DNA from: Irpex lacteus
Taxonomy: Eukaryota > Basidiomycota > Agaricomycetes > Polyporales > Irpicaceae
Direction: 5' to 3'
Length of the DNA: 64,000 nucleotides
NCBI GenBank assembly: GCA_001986395.2
Contig: MQVO02000017.1
Span: 661,120-725,119, forward strand
This document shows positions 14 through 9,720 of this stretch, in pieces. The notes beneath the pieces were generated by a model. The model was not told where the DNA came from. It was given only the letters and a program-made list of their open reading frames with translations, and made no database searches. Numbering within the stretch: position 1 is the stretch's first letter; each line of letters begins with the position of its first letter. The position numbers and the translations under genes were made by a program.

Positions 14-1192
14 TCACTTTGCCTTCGTATCAAGCGACAAGATGTACAGCGGCCATTCTCCCCAGGGTGAAGGCATGATCTTCTGGTCGAGCAGTGTCAA
101 GCCACATTTCTGGTAAATGGTCGCCTTAAAGGAGGAAGATACGCGGTTAGTAATCGGTCTTATAGACGGGCAATTTGTGGTTTCTGTGTTTTGTTTACGA
201 TTCATCACACTCGCAGCGCGACGAAGATCGATCTGGATGACAGAGGTAGATCAGGAAGACTTACATTGAGTGCAGTGGTAGTCGACATGGCTATTACATC
301 GCCCTTGATGGATGCCTATCAAGCGACAGGGTTTCACGGTCAATTCCAAGTAGAAAGAAGATATAGAGGGAGACTGTGTACCTTTTGGACCACCTGATCA
401 ATCAGGCCTTTACCGACGCCTTTGCCCTGGTGTTCGCGTTGTACCATCACTATATGAATGTACCAAGAGTCCAGTTTACCCTATCAGAGAGATTCCGAGA
501 ATGGAGGAAACGCGGTAAGCCAGAGAATTGAGGGGGAATGGAACCACAAGTGTTTCACTGACCGTTGGCCCCAAACACTTATTCACAAACGATGGAAATT
601 CTGCCAAGTACTAAATTTCATGGTTCAACGTCAGTGATAGTACCGTCGGAGGAATGCACATACCGTCGTTGCGTAGTATTCTTTTCCCTCCGGAGAGAGA
701 TTGGCCATAAACTCTGTTAATCCCAGAGCGCGCTGCTCCTCGCTGGAATGAAGAGATTGTGACGACACGAAACACCAGTACAGCATTAAATGCTCACGTG
801 CTGAAGAGGTCTTGCCCAGGTGGCATCGTCATCAAGAAACCCACCAGGCCTCCGTCCGCATTTGTGGCTTCATAATACTCTCCGCTGTGAATACCAGCGC
901 GAAGCATAGCCCTCCCCATACCCGGAATCTTCTCCGGCTCCCCGCCCACAAGGCTCTTGAGAGCGGCATCTAAGCGATAACACGATCGGTCTCTAATCCC
1001 AGGAACACACAAGCACTACGATCGAGAGTACTTACCGCCCTTCATAAGAGAATAAAAGAGATCCACTGCCTCATCGACTCTAGTCTCTGCCAGTGTGCGC
1101 TCCGATCAGCAGCTACATTTACTTCCGCTGGTCATGCTAAACGCACCTGAAGGCTGTTCAACGCGCTGGATCGTGATTCCACTTGGAGCCAT
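14..1192 (-). CDS. GNAT-family N-acetyltransferase
   Basis: Predicted acyl-CoA-dependent acetyltransferase of the GNAT fold; the substrate cannot be told. Translation starts at the ATG at 1192 (MAPSGITIQRVEQPS) and passes through several short introns. Exons at 1147-1192 and 1036-1086 join in frame to the exon ending in MTMPPGQDLFST. A later exon (about 385-490) carries the acetyl-CoA-binding motif A as VQREHQGKGVGKG (the Q/R-x-x-G-x-G/A signature). The last exon has the motif-B-like YQKCGL and ends at the stop at 14. The gene is complete and resembles the many small single-domain GNATs of mushroom genomes. Internal intron borders downstream of 385 are less certain than the ends. It is divergent from the UstYa-like gene at 1662 with about 470 bases between; a functional link is possible but not shown. 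Confidence 0.78.
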
Positions 1193-1661: not shown

Positions 1662-2369
1662 ATGTTCAGTAAAGACTCTCGACAAACTCTTCTCCTGCTC
1701 ATTCTGATCTCGACCTCGCTATACCTTAACTTCTCGTTGGTCGACCTAGTAGAGCAGATCAAACATGCTAGGCGACTACGACTGCAGGTGGAGAAAGTCC
1801 GTCCTGAGGATTCCTACTGTATGTTGCATGCGACAGTTCAGATGAGGGAGCAACGACTGATGATGAGTATAGCTTACATCGCAGAAGACCATCCACTTCG
1901 ACTTCCTATCGAAAGAAAGTTGATAAAAATGGTCGCAGAGGAGAGTGTCCGGTACTCAATCACAGACCCAGAAGCCGAGATGGAATGGTTGTGGACTGGT
2001 CCCGTTGGCGACCATTCAATTCGATTGGGGAGTGAGCAGCGCGGCTTCACAATTGCAATGTTCCACCAACTACACTGTCTGCGCATCACCCGCGAGGCCC
2101 TCATGTTCAACAACTGGACCGCTTTCCCTCATGGTGCCAGGGAGCACCTCAACCATTGCTTCACTTACATCCGCATGTGGACTCTTTGCGACGCGGACAC
2201 AACGCTCGAGCCCGGAGACTTCACGAAGCGCAATTTCACGCTGGAGCGGACGGGTGGAACACACACGTGTTACGACTGGGAGGCAGTGTACGACAGAGTG
2301 AATGAAGGGTGGGATCAATGGGAAGAATACCGTATAGCTCATGGCGTACCACCGCAGACTCTTGGATAG
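1662..2369 (+). CDS. UstYa-family (DUF3328) oxidase
   Basis: UstYa-family proteins are membrane-anchored, copper-dependent-type oxidases. In fungi they cyclise or otherwise oxidise ribosomal peptides (ustiloxin, phomopsin, asperipin pathways). The reading frame is open through 1662-2369, but bases 1819-1872 form a 54-base in-frame GT-AG intron. Removing it gives about 217 residues and restores the family-like SYSYIAEDHP-LP segment. The N-terminus has a hydrophobic signal anchor (about residues 8-27). Both diagnostic HxxHC motifs are present: HQLHC near residues 117-121 and HLNHC near 144-148, followed by the usual R-x-W-x-LCDADTTLEP stretch. The C-terminal CYDWEAVYD segment is also typical. 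It lies just upstream of four tandem small secreted-peptide genes in the same orientation, which makes a peptide-modifying role attractive but unproven. UstYa genes are also common as singletons in basidiomycetes. Confidence 0.88.
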   Translation: MFSKDSRQTLLLLILISTSLYLNFSLVDLVEQIKHARRLRLQVEKVRPEDSYCMLHATVQMREQRLMMSIAYIAEDHPLRLPIERKLIKMVAEESVRYSITDPEAEMEWLWTGPVGDHSIRLGSEQRGFTIAMFHQLHCLRITREALMFNNWTAFPHGAREHLNHCFTYIRMWTLCDADTTLEPGDFTKRNFTLERTGGTHTCYDWEAVYDRVNEGWDQWEEYRIAHGVPPQTLG

Positions 2370-3929
2370 CCACTCTATTTCTTGACTTGACATGTAGACA
2401 CCTGTCATTGAATTTCACGTATTTTTGAGTGTGACGGCCACCGAGCGACGAATCAACGTACCGGCGAACCGTACGCGCGATGAAGTTTGCAAATGTACAT
2501 GTAAAATGCAATAGAATTGAGGAGTAGCCTAGCCCAAGAAAGACATTGGCAAACGTCCATCACCTGCAGCCATTGCTATTGTTCAGGCGTTAATTAAGCT
2601 TGTACGTCGCGCGTTCGTAATTGAACCGCTTACAGTAAGTACCTATTGTTGTCTGCGCACCGGCCCTAGAAAGCATAGTGATCACACTCACTTAATCTTG
2701 GCTTGCCATACGATCATCTAGCCTGAATCGTATAATCGAGATACCAGACCTTAGGTATCCGATCTATGACCGTGTGAGAACAGGGTTGGCAAGGTTTGTA
2801 TGCACCTTTCGTCCAAATGAGAAGCTCCCATGGTCGTTTGCAGGGTCGTAACCTTTGTGGCGTCGTGACATATCTGTATACCGTAAAGGTGTAGGTCAGC
2901 ACCGAAAAGGAAGAAATTTGAGGCAGCTTGATGCAGCCTGGGTGATGGCTGCGAAGAATCTCAACTGCGTGTAGCAGTACGTTTCGGCTCCACAACTCCT
3001 TCCCGCGGATCCAATGAACTGAATGCAGTGTGTGAGCTGTTGTGAACAAGGATGATGAGATACACTTGGAGAACAGAGGCGGAGTAACCGCAGATACGCA
3101 CTGAAAGACAATTCATAGATAGGTCTTTGTTGCATATCGTTCGTTAGCGTCACCTCCCAAGGCATACCAAGCACTCGATGTGTGCAGCAGACTAAGACCG
3201 GATGGGTTTGAGGCATACCCAAGACATCATAGGGATGAGATCCAAGTATCAACCCGCATGCTTGCATATGCTTGTCCGCATTGCAAGCTCACACTTTAGA
3301 CGTGGGAGCATATGAGGTGGAGTTGCTCCGTTCCGCTGGCCATATGCTTCATCTAGCGCTCATTGATATTGGGCGACTTGGGCTCGTATCGTTGCGAGTT
3401 GAAGTCAAGTTGAGTATAATGGAGTAAAGCGGTGTCATACGCACGGTAATACTCTCGAATGCGAACTCGTCGGATCCTATGTATATCGCTCTCTTCTATC
3501 TTGTAGGTCGGTCACTCTACCATTGAAATCATGATCTTTGTGGCGCTGCACGTCCCTGATGACAGTTGACGAACGACATTCGGGGACAATTGCCATAAAT
3601 TGCGATTCTTTCCCTTCAAAGAACTCCGACCTAGTAGAGGGCAAGCAACCCTGATGAGACTCGTGCTGAGGGAGCACAATGGGAATGAGGCACACCATGT
3701 CTTGATTGCATCGCAGAGCTCAAGGTCGCGCACCCTGTTGTCGACTGAAGATAGCGACAATGGCGTGGAAATACGATATACACAAGTCGACGGCCGGACA
3801 GTATGCCCGACGGGAACTATGCACCAATACGTCACCTGGACTTTTGATCTTTGAGATAGCATATAAATACTCACTGTTGTCAGTTTGGACAGGAGAACAG
3901 AGCATTCTGCAACATTCACTCGCTTCGTG
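2370..3929. other. Intergenic, no recognised gene
   Basis: About 1.6 kb between the oxidase and the first peptide gene. Open frames on both strands (for example 2714-3267 minus and 3512-3919 minus) have no recognisable domain and look like chance frames. The proximal promoter of the peptide gene lies at the right end. Confidence 0.5.
3862..3869 (+). promoter_or_regulatory. TATA box of first peptide gene
   Basis: TATAAATA lies 68 bases upstream of the ATG at 3930. Similarly placed TATAAAT boxes precede the second and third peptide genes, suggesting a shared core-promoter design and potentially strong expression. Confidence 0.6.
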
Positions 3930-4124
3930 ATGCAGACGAGATTCTTGGTTCTTTTTGCGTGCGTCGCGCTCGCGAAATGTGTCAGTGCTGCGCCTATCGC
4001 GGAACTTGGTACGTTTGCTCAGCTTGCTTGGATTCTATAGATGCTCTAGAGCTCATGTGTCCTGCCATGCATAGGTAAAATTCCTTCGCGCCATGATTCA
4101 GGCATTCTACTACCGCCACGTTAG
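3930..4124 (+). CDS. Small secreted peptide precursor, single D-x-x-I-L core (family member 1)
   Basis: Two exons (3930-4008 and 4075-4124) join in phase 1 to give a 42-residue protein. Exon 1 encodes a signal peptide (MQTRFLVLFACVALAKCVSA) followed by APIAELG. Exon 2 encodes GKIPSRHDSGILLPPR and stops at TAG 4122-4124. The intron starts with GTACGT and ends in CATAG. The end PSR-H-DSGIL-LPP lines up with the cores of the three neighbours (HSR-I-DAQIL, HSQ-G-DAHIL, PTR-G-DAKIL). No enzyme domain is possible at this length; it is read as a precursor for a short secreted or modified peptide. I recognise no described family. The intron is supported by frame, splice sites and the paralogues, not by transcripts. 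Confidence 0.65.
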
Positions 4125-4862
4125 TGTTCTCACCCCACGAAGTCATTCGGCGTTCTTGTCTTGTCCGTGATACTGATGATAGCTATTCCTTCAGCCGGTT
4201 CGCACTAAGACAACCAGTTTTGTATTTTATCGCGGAGAAGCAACGGAAGATTTACGTACCGTTGACTAGAACGAATCTTATTGCTTGCAAAGCTCTTGCC
4301 CCCATTGTCGTCTCTGGAGTTACTAAATTAGTACACACATCGATACTAAGCACTCGAACGGAAATGGACGTACAACCCACTGTACCGTCCCGAGGGAAAC
4401 AGGGTGTATGCCGCACGCCTTAGTTCTTAGAAGCTGATGCAAACAGCCGAAACAGATTGCGGCATTCCATCAAATCAAGCTACAGTCAATGGCTAGATAT
4501 CGAATCTCAATCGATACGTGTGACTTATAGACTGTTCCATACTGTATGCGCAATGCCGCGTCGTCAAGAAATGATCTGGAGTGCTGCGTGCACGACAGTA
4601 GAAGGGGAGCACAATAACTGCGGACAAACTTTGATTCGGTACGCCCAAGGCTTCGGTGCATATGTCGGATTGAGCGGGCATACGCTTCCATTTGATATGC
4701 GGAGTGACTCTGGAAGATACAATGAGAGCGATGCGCCGAGAAGTTTATATCCCGCGGTGTCTCTGTTGGGTGGCTTTAGAAGGAAGATATAAATGCCCAT
4801 ACCGTATTGTGGCAACATCCATCTACCATCCACCGTCTACCGTGTACTGTCCCTTCATCACC
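4125..4862. other. Intergenic between peptide genes 1 and 2
   Basis: No recognisable gene in about 740 bases. The right end holds the promoter of the next peptide gene. Several open frames overlap here but lack domains or convincing splice structure. Confidence 0.5.
4788..4794 (+). promoter_or_regulatory. TATA box of second peptide gene
   Basis: TATAAAT 75 bases upstream of the ATG at 4863, at the same relative place as in the neighbouring peptide genes. Confidence 0.6.
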
Positions 4863-5147
4863 ATGCGGTCTGCGTTCACGTACCTGCTCGCTATGCTGGC
4901 CGTCGTTGCAGTAAAGGCTACGCCTGTTCCCGAACCCAGAGTAAAAGGTACGCCTTTCTAGCTCAACAGACGGAGCTCAAGTATTAAAGCATATCCATAT
5001 ACTTACTCGTTTCAGCTGTCGAAATCCACAGTCGCATAGATGCGCAAATCTTGACACCTCCTCCTGTCACTCGTGCATTCGACGACGGTAAGCACCCATT
5101 GTTGGAATCGCGTGCTACTTGAGCTAAGGTTCTGGATAGCCGCATAA
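4863..5147 (+). CDS. Small secreted peptide precursor, single DAQIL core (family member 2)
   Basis: Three exons (4863-4947, 5016-5087, 5140-5147) give a 54-residue protein. Exon 1 is a signal peptide (MRSAFTYLLAMLAVVAVKA) with a short TPVPEPRVK pro-segment. The phase-1 intron begins with GTACGC, and exon 2 encodes AVEIHSRIDAQILTPPPVTR followed by AFDD. A 52-base second intron (GTAAGC to GATAG) leads to two alanines and TAA at 5145-5147. The core HSR-I-DAQIL-TPPP matches family member 1 (PSR-H-DSGIL-LPP) and the repeats of member 3. Arginines on both sides of the core could be protease sites. The last exon is tiny, so the C-terminus is the least certain part. A longer product with another acceptor near 5268 was considered less likely. 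Confidence 0.62.
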
Positions 5148-6156
5148 TCGAGAGTCCTATCACCCTAATGGACAAAAACCTGCGTTAGCTTGCGTAATTG
5201 TATCATAACAACCATGACTCTCTCCTACTTTCGTTCTCTCCTCATATGCTGTTAATACCGTTATTTAGTTGTGACGCACTACGGCGTACATAGTTTTAGG
5301 TTTAGATTGTATGACATAGCCGTTGGATACTACTCAGCTTACCGATTACCTGCTACACTTATCGTCTATAAAGTTGGAATAGTCAGCGTCGTGGACAAGA
5401 AACTGGAAATTTAGATCGGATATTCGTCGAGGCAGGTCGAGGCGCCTTGAGCTCTTCGGCAGAACCCGTTGATGGTCTTGGGGGCCAGCGCTCCAGCACT
5501 ACTCACCTCAACTTCAAGTTGAACTTCCGTAACGGTACCGGTGACAGCACCTCCTGTAGAAGTTCTGTTACGGAGGCGCAGTGCAAACTATGTATGCACT
5601 AGTACGTTTCTCAAGATTCGAACCGTAGATATTTTAACTGAGTCAAAGATGCCAGTACTTATAGTAGTGAGTCGATCTCTTACGTTTCCTGCTGGCATGT
5701 GGAGTATTTGAGGAATTAGCGAGGCAAGGATTCTAATCTCTGCAGTCTCCCGCTGTCATGAATTGTGATAACGGAAAGCACAAAAAACTGCCGATTTGCC
5801 GCATGCCAGCGATAAGTATGCTCAAATAACTCCATCTTGATCATGAGCGTGGACGATCTCATTTGCTTCCGCTGATTTTTGTCCATGGTGAAACTAAGGT
5901 GAAGTACCGAATACGCGAGGCGGACATGATCACCTTAAAGAATAATTTAGGTGCTTTTGGGCGAGCATCGCGCCTTGCTAGCATATTTCGCGACGCTCAT
6001 GGGTTTTGAGCACAGCTTGAAAGCTCTGGGCGGGCGACGCTGCAGGCATGCCGGAGGCCCCAATTCGGGGTATAAATTAAGAGAGTTTGAATGGGTTTGC
6101 AAGCAGGCATTCGCTTCTCACCCCCAATCATCTCGCCGCGTCTCAGTTTCTCTAGT
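5148..6156. other. Intergenic between peptide genes 2 and 3
   Basis: About 1 kb without a recognised gene. A stretch near 5400-5590 is open in one frame but has no start, signal peptide or DAxIL motif. The right 90 bases hold the TATA box and leader of the repeat-bearing peptide gene. Confidence 0.45.
6071..6079 (+). promoter_or_regulatory. TATA box of repeat-bearing peptide gene
   Basis: TATAAATTA 86 bases upstream of the ATG at 6157, matching the placement in the other peptide genes. Confidence 0.6.
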
Positions 6157-6569
6157 ATGCAGTCCCAGATCCTACGCAGCCTTGCCTTCATCACTCTCCT
6201 TGTCTGTGCTGCACTCGCGGCTCCCGCCAAGAGAGGTACGTGTCTATGGTCATACGCCTCTATGATCAATCACTTATCGTCCTGACAGAGATAGACGGGC
6301 CGCACTCTCAAGGCGATGCTCACATCCTGAAGCCCGCGGAGGCCCGTTACCTGCACACAGACGCACAGATCCTTAAGCCTGTCGGTCGTCGTTACGTGTA
6401 TACCGATGCTCAGATTCTCAAGCCCGTCGAAGCTCGCTACCTACACACCGATGCTCAGATCCTCAAGCCCGCTGAGGCTCGCGAGCTGCGCATCGATGCA
6501 CAGATCCTCAGGCCCGTCGAGGCTCGTCAGCTCCGCTCTGATGCTCAAATCTTGAGGCCTCAGGACTGA
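6157..6569 (+). CDS. Secreted peptide precursor with six DA[QH]IL[KR]P repeats (family member 3)
   Basis: Exons 6157-6235 and 6289-6569 join in phase 1 to give 119 residues. Exon 1 encodes a signal peptide (MQSQILRSLAFITLLVCAALA) followed by APAKR, a Kex2-type dibasic site. Exon 2 opens with EIDGPHSQG and then has six tandem units of 15 residues (45 bases): DA[QH]IL[KR]P followed by a spacer such as VEARYLHT. The last unit ends in DAQILRPQD and TGA. The heptad DA[QH]IL[KR]P is nearly invariant, while the spacer varies (YLHT, YVYT, ELRI, QLRS). Repeats of this kind, cut from a secreted precursor, are typical of fungal pheromone and dikaritin RiPP precursors. Only one spacer (GRR) and the pro-site (KR) are dibasic; the others end in EAR. 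The family and product are unknown to me. Confidence 0.78.
6304..6561 (+). repeat. 45-base coding tandem repeat, six units
   Basis: Six in-frame units, each beginning with a GAYGCNCANATC-like block encoding DA[QH]IL, spaced 45 bases apart inside the precursor gene. Third-base differences between units, with conserved residues, suggest selection on the peptide and not just recent duplication. Confidence 0.8.
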
Positions 6570-7276
6570 TTGGAGGTAGGTCTTTTCCAACACCGGAGTG
6601 CCTTATGACGAATTTACCTTCTCACCCCACCAGATGTAACTGGAATTCGCCAAGTGGCCTCTGGCGGGACCTGCATGGCGGGATGTATCATTCAGAACTT
6701 ACATTACGTTGACGATTTCTCGTGCCATAGGGCAGGGACACATAAACTCTTAAACCCTATATCGATGTATTATCCTCCCTTGCGCTGCTTTAGCGAATGT
6801 ATTTTTGGTGGCTGAATGCCTGTAACAACGAACTACCGTGCCCGCTCGAGTCTCGTGGCCTCACCTTTCGGGTATAGTTGACCTGGAATATTTATCTTTC
6901 TATTACTGCAACTGTGTCATGTGTATTGTTCCCACCCTTCCCTATTCGCTACATGAGTGTGAAATAACTTTGTGAAACCGGTACATACCTTCACTAGAGA
7001 AACCGTATACAAGCCATTCTCGAATGAATAGCGCACATTCGGGAATCCAGTTCTGTAGTGAATTACAATGACTTCGGAGGCTGTTGTGGCTCATAGTATG
7101 CGCTATTTACCAAGCTTCAGCGGTGGCAGTCAGATGTGATTTCCCCTTGCGAAGACCGAGAACTTGGGAAGACATCCTGACTTCTACTACGCGAGGATGC
7201 CAACGCCATAGTACAAAATATACAAGGGATAGCCTTTGCACAGTTGTTTTTCATTGCTCTGCTCTTCTCCCACATC
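6570..7276. other. Intergenic between peptide genes 3 and 4
   Basis: No recognised gene in about 700 bases. The right end carries an AT-rich stretch, AATATACAA near 7218, about 59 bases before the next ATG; it may serve as a weak TATA element. Confidence 0.5.
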
Positions 7277-7502
7277 ATGCGCTCCCAAGTTCAAGTACTC
7301 ATAATGTTCGCGTTTATGACGACCTTCAGCCTGAGCAAGGCGGCAGCGTTCCCTGTACGAACACGTACGTCACTCGGCTGATCTATAGGTGTCATGCTAT
7401 CTGATAGCTTTTATCATGCTTGTAGGTACTAATCATGAGGTTCGTCCGACGCGAGGAGACGCAAAAATCCTCGGAACCCTGGCTCTTGAAGCTTCAAGCT
7501 GA
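7277..7502 (+). CDS. Small secreted peptide precursor, single GDAKIL core (family member 4)
   Basis: Exons 7277-7364 and 7426-7502 join in phase 1 to give 54 residues. Exon 1 encodes a signal peptide (MRSQVQVLIMFAFMTTFSLS) and KAAAFPVRT. The intron starts GTACGT and ends CTTGTAG. Exon 2 encodes RTNHEVRPTRGDAKILGTLA and then LEASS before TGA. The segment PTR-G-DAKIL aligns with HSQ-G-DAHIL of member 3 and PSR-H-DSGIL of member 1. As in the paralogues the intron separates secretion signal from core, so exon 1 is a leader module and exon 2 a product module. The product is unknown. Confidence 0.65.
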
Positions 7503-8704: not shown

Positions 8705-9720
8705 ATGCTCTCTAATCGTGAAGAAGCTGTAGGTCTCCTCGACGAGACTGCCAGCCCCACTGAGTTTGAGAAAGGTATGACCACGTATGCTTGTTCTGCC
8801 CGGCACCCTGCTCATCACCCGTCCATAGAGCACTACCCTCAAACTGAGGCACATAACAGGAGCACAGCGACACGATGGGTTACCGTCCTTCTCTTTGTTT
8901 TTGTTGCTCTGGACGTTGCTGTCTTTAGCTACATCGCAAAGCAGCTTTTGTCTGAGGACTATCCCGAAGAGCTTGAGATTCGAAACGCCTACTATGGTCT
9001 CGACGAGCTCTACGATCCTCGCTGGAACCTCGTTAACTCCTCACACCACGACCCCATAATCAACCTCCCCCGACGACTCGGTATGGTGGACAGCTCCAAC
9101 CCACACAAGATCTCACCATTCGAGGAGCACCTAACCCTCACTCCTTATGGCCGCATGAGTATCCCTGATCATCATCTCCAAGTCTCCGACCAGGTACGTC
9201 TCCTCCCCTACCATCAAACACCCGACATCATCCGTCGTTTAACATACCATATGCAGATGCACATGATCTACCAGTTCAGAGTGATCGACTACGGCATGGA
9301 GGAATGTCAACTCGCATTGAGGCTCCCTGAATTGGACGACGACAAGTTATTGGATCCATACGTCTTCCGCGGGGACAATAACCAAGTCTTGTTGGACGTC
9401 TGCGAGCTTGATGCCCCAAAGCTCATTGATATCCCCAAGCTCTCGTGGTCCACTCGCCCATCGTGCCAGAACCACGTTGGAACGTTCGCTGCGCGTCCGG
9501 GCACGGAGAGAACGCTCGGGAAGTTCCCGTGCGAGACCGCGACTGTGCGATCGTTCCAGCTTTCGTGCGCCCCGCAGAATCGCGATTGCTTCATCGACGT
9601 CTGGTCCAGCCAGAATCAGACATGGGGTAAGCTTTGTTACCCGTGCGTGACTTGAACATGAAGCTAATCCTGTATCGCAATCTATCAGGTGTATTCATGT
9701 ATCAGCACCAGACCGTGTAG
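8705..9720 (+). CDS. Membrane-anchored But2-like protein
   Basis: Four exons (8705-8774, 8829-9193, 9257-9626, 9689-9720) give about 278 residues ending in WGVFMYQHQTV. The start at 8705 (MLSNREEAVGLLDE) is preferred over the in-frame 8642 because the acidic, cytosolic-looking N-terminus begins there. One membrane span lies near residues 40-62 (VTVLLFVFVALDVAVFSYIA), followed by an extracytosolic domain. The C-terminal half (CQLALRLPE, VCELDAP, SFQLSCA) resembles the 'ubiquitin 3 binding protein But2 C-terminal' domain found in many mushroom membrane proteins of unknown role. This assignment is from pattern memory. It lies downstream of the peptide cluster with no evidence of a shared function. 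Confidence 0.72.

Follow-up and report, generated by a model that had tools for sequence, protein, structure and literature searches.

A UstYa-type oxidase gene beside four DAxIL peptide-precursor genes in Irpex lacteus: a candidate RiPP locus

The locus described here raises one question: does the UstYa (DUF3328) oxidase that it encodes act on the small, secreted-type peptides encoded next to it? It lies in the window, by which we mean the whole 64,000-nucleotide stretch analysed (bases 661120-725119 of contig C307 in the Irpex lacteus genome, 44.3 Mb in 317 contigs). An earlier note on this DNA had proposed that four mini-genes sharing a DAxIL motif supply the substrates of the enzyme. Our results suggested that the DAxIL genes form a peptide-precursor family that is new but of a known kind, and that the locus is a candidate for the production of ribosomally synthesized and post-translationally modified peptides (RiPPs). 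Whether the oxidase is the modifying enzyme can be answered with much less confidence.

Four precursor genes built to one plan

Downstream of the UstYa gene we found, as the earlier note had described, four co-oriented precursor genes, all on the + strand: p1 (3930..4124; exons 3930-4008 and 4075-4124), p2 (4863..5087; exons 4863-4947 and 5016-5087, with a conserved donor after it), p3 (6157..6569; exons 6157-6235 and 6289-6569) and p4 (7277..7502; exons 7277-7364 and 7426-7502). In all of them exon 1 is signal-like, the intron that follows it is phase-1, 53-68 nt long and opens with GTACG, and the D[AS]xIL motif is located in exon 2. The signal-like N-terminus, recognised by inspection, consists in 4/4 precursors of a hydrophobic stretch with an [AV]-x-A end. 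Internal repeats are present in p3 alone, which carries six DAxIL units at 15-residue spacing, joined by linkers ending in AR or RR; p1, p2 and p4 have one unit each (PSRHDSGILLPPR, IHSRIDAQILTPPPVTRAFDD and PTRGDAKILGTLALEASS, respectively). On the same strand, a TATA box precedes p1 (3862..3867, -68 from the ATG), p2 (4788..4793, -75) and p3 (6071..6076, -86), and a TATA-like box, TATACA, precedes p4 (7219..7224, -58). The p1 and p2 promoters also have GGGAGCACAAT in common at near-equal distance, which is not significant (E 0.65).

The motif is concentrated in this region. Nine six-frame D[AS]xIL matches were found in 3900-7502 (~3.6 kb), compared to three in the rest of the window. On a Poisson model with the rate seen outside this stretch, P is 4e-13 if every hit is counted and 4e-5 if each gene is counted once; these values have to be read knowing that the hits within p3 are not independent and that the stretch was picked after the fact. 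The common gene plan, the motif clustering and the conservation in other species described below led us to reject chance open reading frames (ORFs) as an explanation. For p3, Pfam returned AvrM_N at 14.9 bits, under its cut-off of 25.

Contig C241 (67.9 kb) carries the window region in inverted orientation and most likely represents the second haplotype of the locus; identity over the main pieces is 89-98%. Elsewhere in the genome, protein searches with p1, p2, p3 and p4 matched only the locus and this C241 copy. A degenerate DAQIL pattern gave 41 matches over the genome (11 for the reversed control), with 12 of them within the locus and its copy; the remaining 29 were read by eye and none is precursor-like.

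The family is conserved outside I. lacteus. Our protein searches covered 5.8 billion sequences and are weak for proteins shorter than ~54 residues and for unannotated genes. Among 1143 candidates, the precursor profile retained three proteins at E <= 10: P0001, of 145 aa, from Irpex rosettiformis (Irpicaceae, Polyporales; 1e-26), and the environmental proteins P0036 (6e-5), from a 642-base contig, and P0037 (1e-4), from one of 1871 bases. The first half of P0001 resembles p2, as does P0037, whereas its second half and P0036 resemble p3; Pfam gave no match for any of the three. Compared with P0001, p2 is identical at 29/33 positions in the mature part and at 12/19 in the signal part; with P0037, whose intron was removed by hand, the figures are 27/33 and 11/19. 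On these alignments, mature p2 is better conserved than its own signal peptide.

The likeness of p2 to its relatives ends at a phase-1 donor, G|GT[AG]AG, at 5087/5088 (for P0037 deduced from the residues), and p2 exon 2 probably ends at this conserved donor, not at the first stop. Past the donor, P0001 runs on with a counterpart of p3 exon 2 (from 6289, in frame). Because of this continuation, splicing of p2 onto p3 exon 2 is possible; alternatively, P0001 may be a fused model of two genes.

The two haplotypes differ in the number of p3 units, six in the window and five on C241. The 45-bp unit at 6372-6416, which alone has an RR linker, has no counterpart on C241, and this would amount to allelic variation in peptide dose. 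The p3 alleles differ further by 3 synonymous and 5 replacement bases near the first unit; p2 has 2 synonymous changes and 4 replacements (Y7C, A10V, K18E, E31D), and p1 and p4 have one synonymous change each. The motif residues D, A or S, I and L are identical between alleles. In the spacer 5088-6156 the haplotypes differ at 117/1057 bases, with the alignment uncertain at indels, versus ~1-4% in the other spacers.

The UstYa gene and its surroundings

The ORF at 1662-2369 (+) matches UstYa/DUF3328 (PF11807) with 61.2 bits against a cut-off of 25, and contains HQLHC and HLNHC, in agreement with the earlier note, which had reported a DUF3328 protein with both HxxHC motifs. That note had taken the ORF as uninterrupted (235 residues), and here we part from it. 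The 18 residues encoded by 1819-1872 are absent from the Cytidiella, Crucibulum, Amanita, Cristinia and Obba orthologues, that is, from those covering the site (the near-identical P0002 excepted), and when they are removed the frame continues as in Cytidiella. Since the orthologues lack this insert, and since its DNA starts with GTATGT and ends with TATAG, the gene probably consists of two exons encoding 217 residues: exon 1 (1662..1818, +), which encodes an N-terminal membrane helix, and exon 2 (1873..2369, +, stop included), with HQLHC and HLNHC, separated by an in-frame intron of 54 nt (1819..1872, +) that had been read as protein.

The protein search with UstYa returned 34 matches, 9 species-named and 25 without a species name, the closest named relative being Cytidiella melzeri (Irpicaceae, Polyporales). 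Across the 34 aligned homologues, H116, H119, C120, H146 and C147 are invariant, and H143 is conserved in at least 90% (Cytidiella numbering). The predicted structure of the Cytidiella orthologue (mean predicted local distance difference test score, pLDDT, 64.3) has an N-terminal helix at 4-40 and helices at 113-129 and 138-158, with one HxxHC each. A model of the reading frame with the intron left in had been of poor quality (mean pLDDT 50.1). The window and C241 alleles of UstYa differ by 4 synonymous and 3 replacement bases.

The gap between UstYa and p1 is 1.6 kb, and no recognised gene was found in it when the neighbouring ORFs and joined exons were scanned. A second UstYa gene, at C307:657558-657827 (-), is found on the opposite strand, ~3.3 kb beyond the left end of the window and ~7 kb from p1; its motifs are degenerate (HQLKC, MTRHC), and it is possibly a partner or a non-catalytic subunit. 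At 14..1192 (-) a GNAT acetyltransferase gene, whose exons were joined by hand and whose ends are approximate, stands as a divergent neighbour and is probably outside the peptide system. On the other side, p4 is adjoined by a gene for a But2-domain membrane-type protein (8705-9655, +; PF09792 at 28 bits, cut-off 24.2).

The genome has at least 10 UstYa matches, which make 8 loci when the two on C241 count as allelic. Apart from the two UstYa genes near p1 there are six loci: in five of these both HxxHC motifs are present, and in C124a the second motif is without its first His (LRRHC). UstYa genes are grouped in a divergent pair at C124:192694-194378 and in three copies within 51 kb at C18:1320470-1371465. 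No repeat ORF of at least 45 aa was found beside the other UstYa genes in five stretches of ~10 kb, which take in part of the flanks (at C18:1333532, for example, little of one side). Lone D[AS]xIL frames, two near the C18 copies (L017, L018) and one left of the window (L013, with a copy in L015), look like chance.

Does the oxidase act on the peptides?

The arrangement of the locus suggests how it would work. Its four paralogous precursors would enter the secretory pathway by means of their signal peptides and yield a family of short secreted peptides. There a kexin-type protease would cut after the Arg that closes each linker (AR/RR); in the single-unit genes its site would follow the Arg two residues ahead of the Asp. 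A carboxypeptidase would trim the Arg. Kexin-type release of short peptides is likely because the repeat linkers end in Arg: AR or RR closes 5/5 linkers in p3, 4/4 in the C241 copy, 2/2 in the repeat part of P0001 and 2/2 in P0036. Examples of Arg-bounded units are IDAQILTPPPVT and YLHTDAQILKPVEA, and KR precedes the first p3 unit. When agaricomycete KEX2-processed repeat proteins (KEPs) were expressed in Pichia, products apparently cut after a single Arg were seen, according to the available text of PMC9769878.

The freed peptides would centre on D-[AS]-x-[IL]-L, followed by x-P in most units. The membrane-bound UstYa, whose HxxHC pair would fit a binuclear copper centre, would most likely oxidise them in the Golgi lumen. 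As the near-invariant core residues are acidic or aliphatic, the chemistry to be expected is C-H oxidation or another non-phenolic change of the core, not a Tyr-Ile ether. DUF3328 proteins have also been tied to hydroxylation and halogenation of aliphatic C-H (PMC12435403, in the text available), and for this reason modification of the DAxIL cores is chemically possible.

That the DAxIL peptides are processed and then oxidised by the neighbouring UstYa is the reading that we prefer, with a confidence just short of even. A conserved, secreted-type precursor family beside UstYa is supported; that UstYa modifies the peptides is argued from position. By chance, 0.0006-0.001 UstYa genes would be expected within 1.6-3.3 kb of a random point (8 loci, a lower bound, in 44.3 Mb). 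In the available text of PMC7329392, DUF3328 genes accompany 1758/7878 KEPs, with a peak at the next gene. That our genome searches found DAxIL genes at this locus only also speaks for the link. From the adjacency and this published enrichment, modification by UstYa is plausible, and we give the enzyme-substrate link itself about an even chance.

Several observations weigh against an action of UstYa on these peptides. The precursors have a TATA box or, in p4, a TATA-like box, and none is present within 150 nt 5' of the UstYa ATG. Among the neighbours scanned (18 ORFs or joined exons, a partial annotation), we recognised no tyrosinase, P450, methyltransferase, peptidase or transporter; the earlier note had likewise seen no methyltransferase or dedicated peptidase next door. 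Only 1/5 p3 linkers is dibasic (RR, the others being AR), its unit is gone from C241, and there the count is 0/4; the dibasic KEX2 sites by which KEPs are recognised are mostly absent between these repeats. Among the 34 UstYa matches (9 species-named) none is named as I. rosettiformis, though the DAxIL protein P0001 was found in that species. UstYa relatives occur in 9 named agaricomycetes (Amanita, Crucibulum, Obba and Fibroporia among them), and a DAxIL protein was found in none of these by a search that is weak for small unannotated genes. In the portions of PMC7329392 at hand, a DUF3328 neighbour is present for only 103/1680 Basidiomycota KEPs, and Tyr occurs in 65.6% of the repeats of DUF3328-linked KEPs. 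We counted 17 DAxIL units (9 in the window, 4 in P0001, 3 in P0036 and 1 in P0037, second-haplotype copies left out) and found an aromatic residue in 6/17, all Tyr, with no Phe or Trp from 6 residues before to 4 after the motif. Finally, one peptidomics study found the peptides of agaricomycete KEPs to be linear or minimally modified (PMC9769878, in the text available).

The best-surviving alternative, quite possible in our judgement, is that the DAxIL genes encode precursors of the KEX2-processed type whose signalling or defence peptides stay unmodified, and that UstYa has an unrelated substrate. The peptidomics result, the scarcity of DUF3328 neighbours among basidiomycete KEPs, the core lacking a conserved aromatic residue and the UstYa homologues found with no DAxIL partner in other agaricomycetes all favour linear peptides. 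Against this alternative stand the two UstYa genes so close to p1, in a genome in which 8 UstYa loci were found, and the lack of a recognised gene between the nearer one and p1.

Considerably less probable is a cross-link of the kind found in dikaritins that would form only in the p3 units with Tyr (YLHTDAQIL, YVYTDAQIL), while the remaining units would follow along unmodified. Tyr is present in three of the six p3 repeats and not in all, just as first noticed, and in these 3/6 units it stands 4 residues before Asp with the Ile kept; it is also found in 2/3 P0036 units. In other units, however, Tyr has moved or given way to Glu, Gln, Ser or Leu, and only 1/4 P0001 units has it. The Tyr-Ile cross-link that the earlier note had in mind fails for most of the family (11/17 units have no aromatic residue near the motif), and since Tyr is present in 6/17 units only, an ustiloxin-style Tyr-Ile ether cannot, on these sequences, be general in it. 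It is very improbable that uncut precursors act whole as small secreted proteins or effectors, as the few dibasic sites and the three single-unit members might suggest, given the 15-residue repeat register with Arg at the linker ends, the haplotypes that differ in unit number with the frame kept, and mature p1-p4 parts with no Cys that could hold a small fold.

Returning to oxidation by UstYa, a broader version can be proposed, which we consider doubtful: a basidiomycete RiPP class in which UstYa modifies the non-aromatic D-A-x-I-L-x-P core of four differently built precursors, and in which p2 also splices onto the p3 repeat exon, so that one enzyme and one exon would serve several peptides.

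Relation to known systems

From its 7878 KEPs, the survey suggested that these proteins may hardly ever be cyclised in Basidiomycota (PMC7329392, available text). The DAxIL locus is compact, having a single motif-intact UstYa and four small precursors, and offers an easy test of KEP cyclisation in this phylum, and the same locus tests whether UstYa enzymes accept cores with no aromatic residue. The DAQIL core was not found in the fungal literature in open-licence papers (supplements aside), in line with the earlier remark that no described family has it, and in such papers we found no mention of DUF3328 in Agaricomycetes. In Pleurotus, 16 UstYa-like genes are given in the accessible part of PMC8893723. 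A predicted fungal-RiPP cluster, which might be the DAxIL locus or another, has been reported for I. lacteus CCBAS Fr 238 617/93 (PMC12134385, in the part available).

The DAxIL genes resemble the KEPs of Agaricomycetes, as described in the available text of PMC9769878, PMC7329392 and PMC6339444, in their signal-like peptide, short repeats and basic residues between units. They differ in their mostly monobasic Arg linkers and in having one unit in 3/4 members, and the D-A-x-I-L core was not found in the KEP texts searched. As in the dikaritin loci (ustiloxin, phomopsin and asperipin-2a), a repeat precursor of secreted type stands next to a DUF3328 enzyme that has two HxxHC motifs, and two UstYa genes are nearby; unlike those loci, this one has no conserved Tyr, and the tyrosinase, methyltransferase and peptidase were not seen among the neighbours scanned. 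On the enzyme side, the closest likeness that we describe is to CctR, the DUF3328 hydroxylase of cyclochlorotine, with one membrane helix and paired HxxHC helices (here from the predicted model of the Cytidiella orthologue). According to the available text of PMC12435403, CctR is a DUF3328 enzyme able to oxidise aliphatic C-H; it differs from the enzyme proposed here in being from an ascomycete and in acting on a non-ribosomal peptide.

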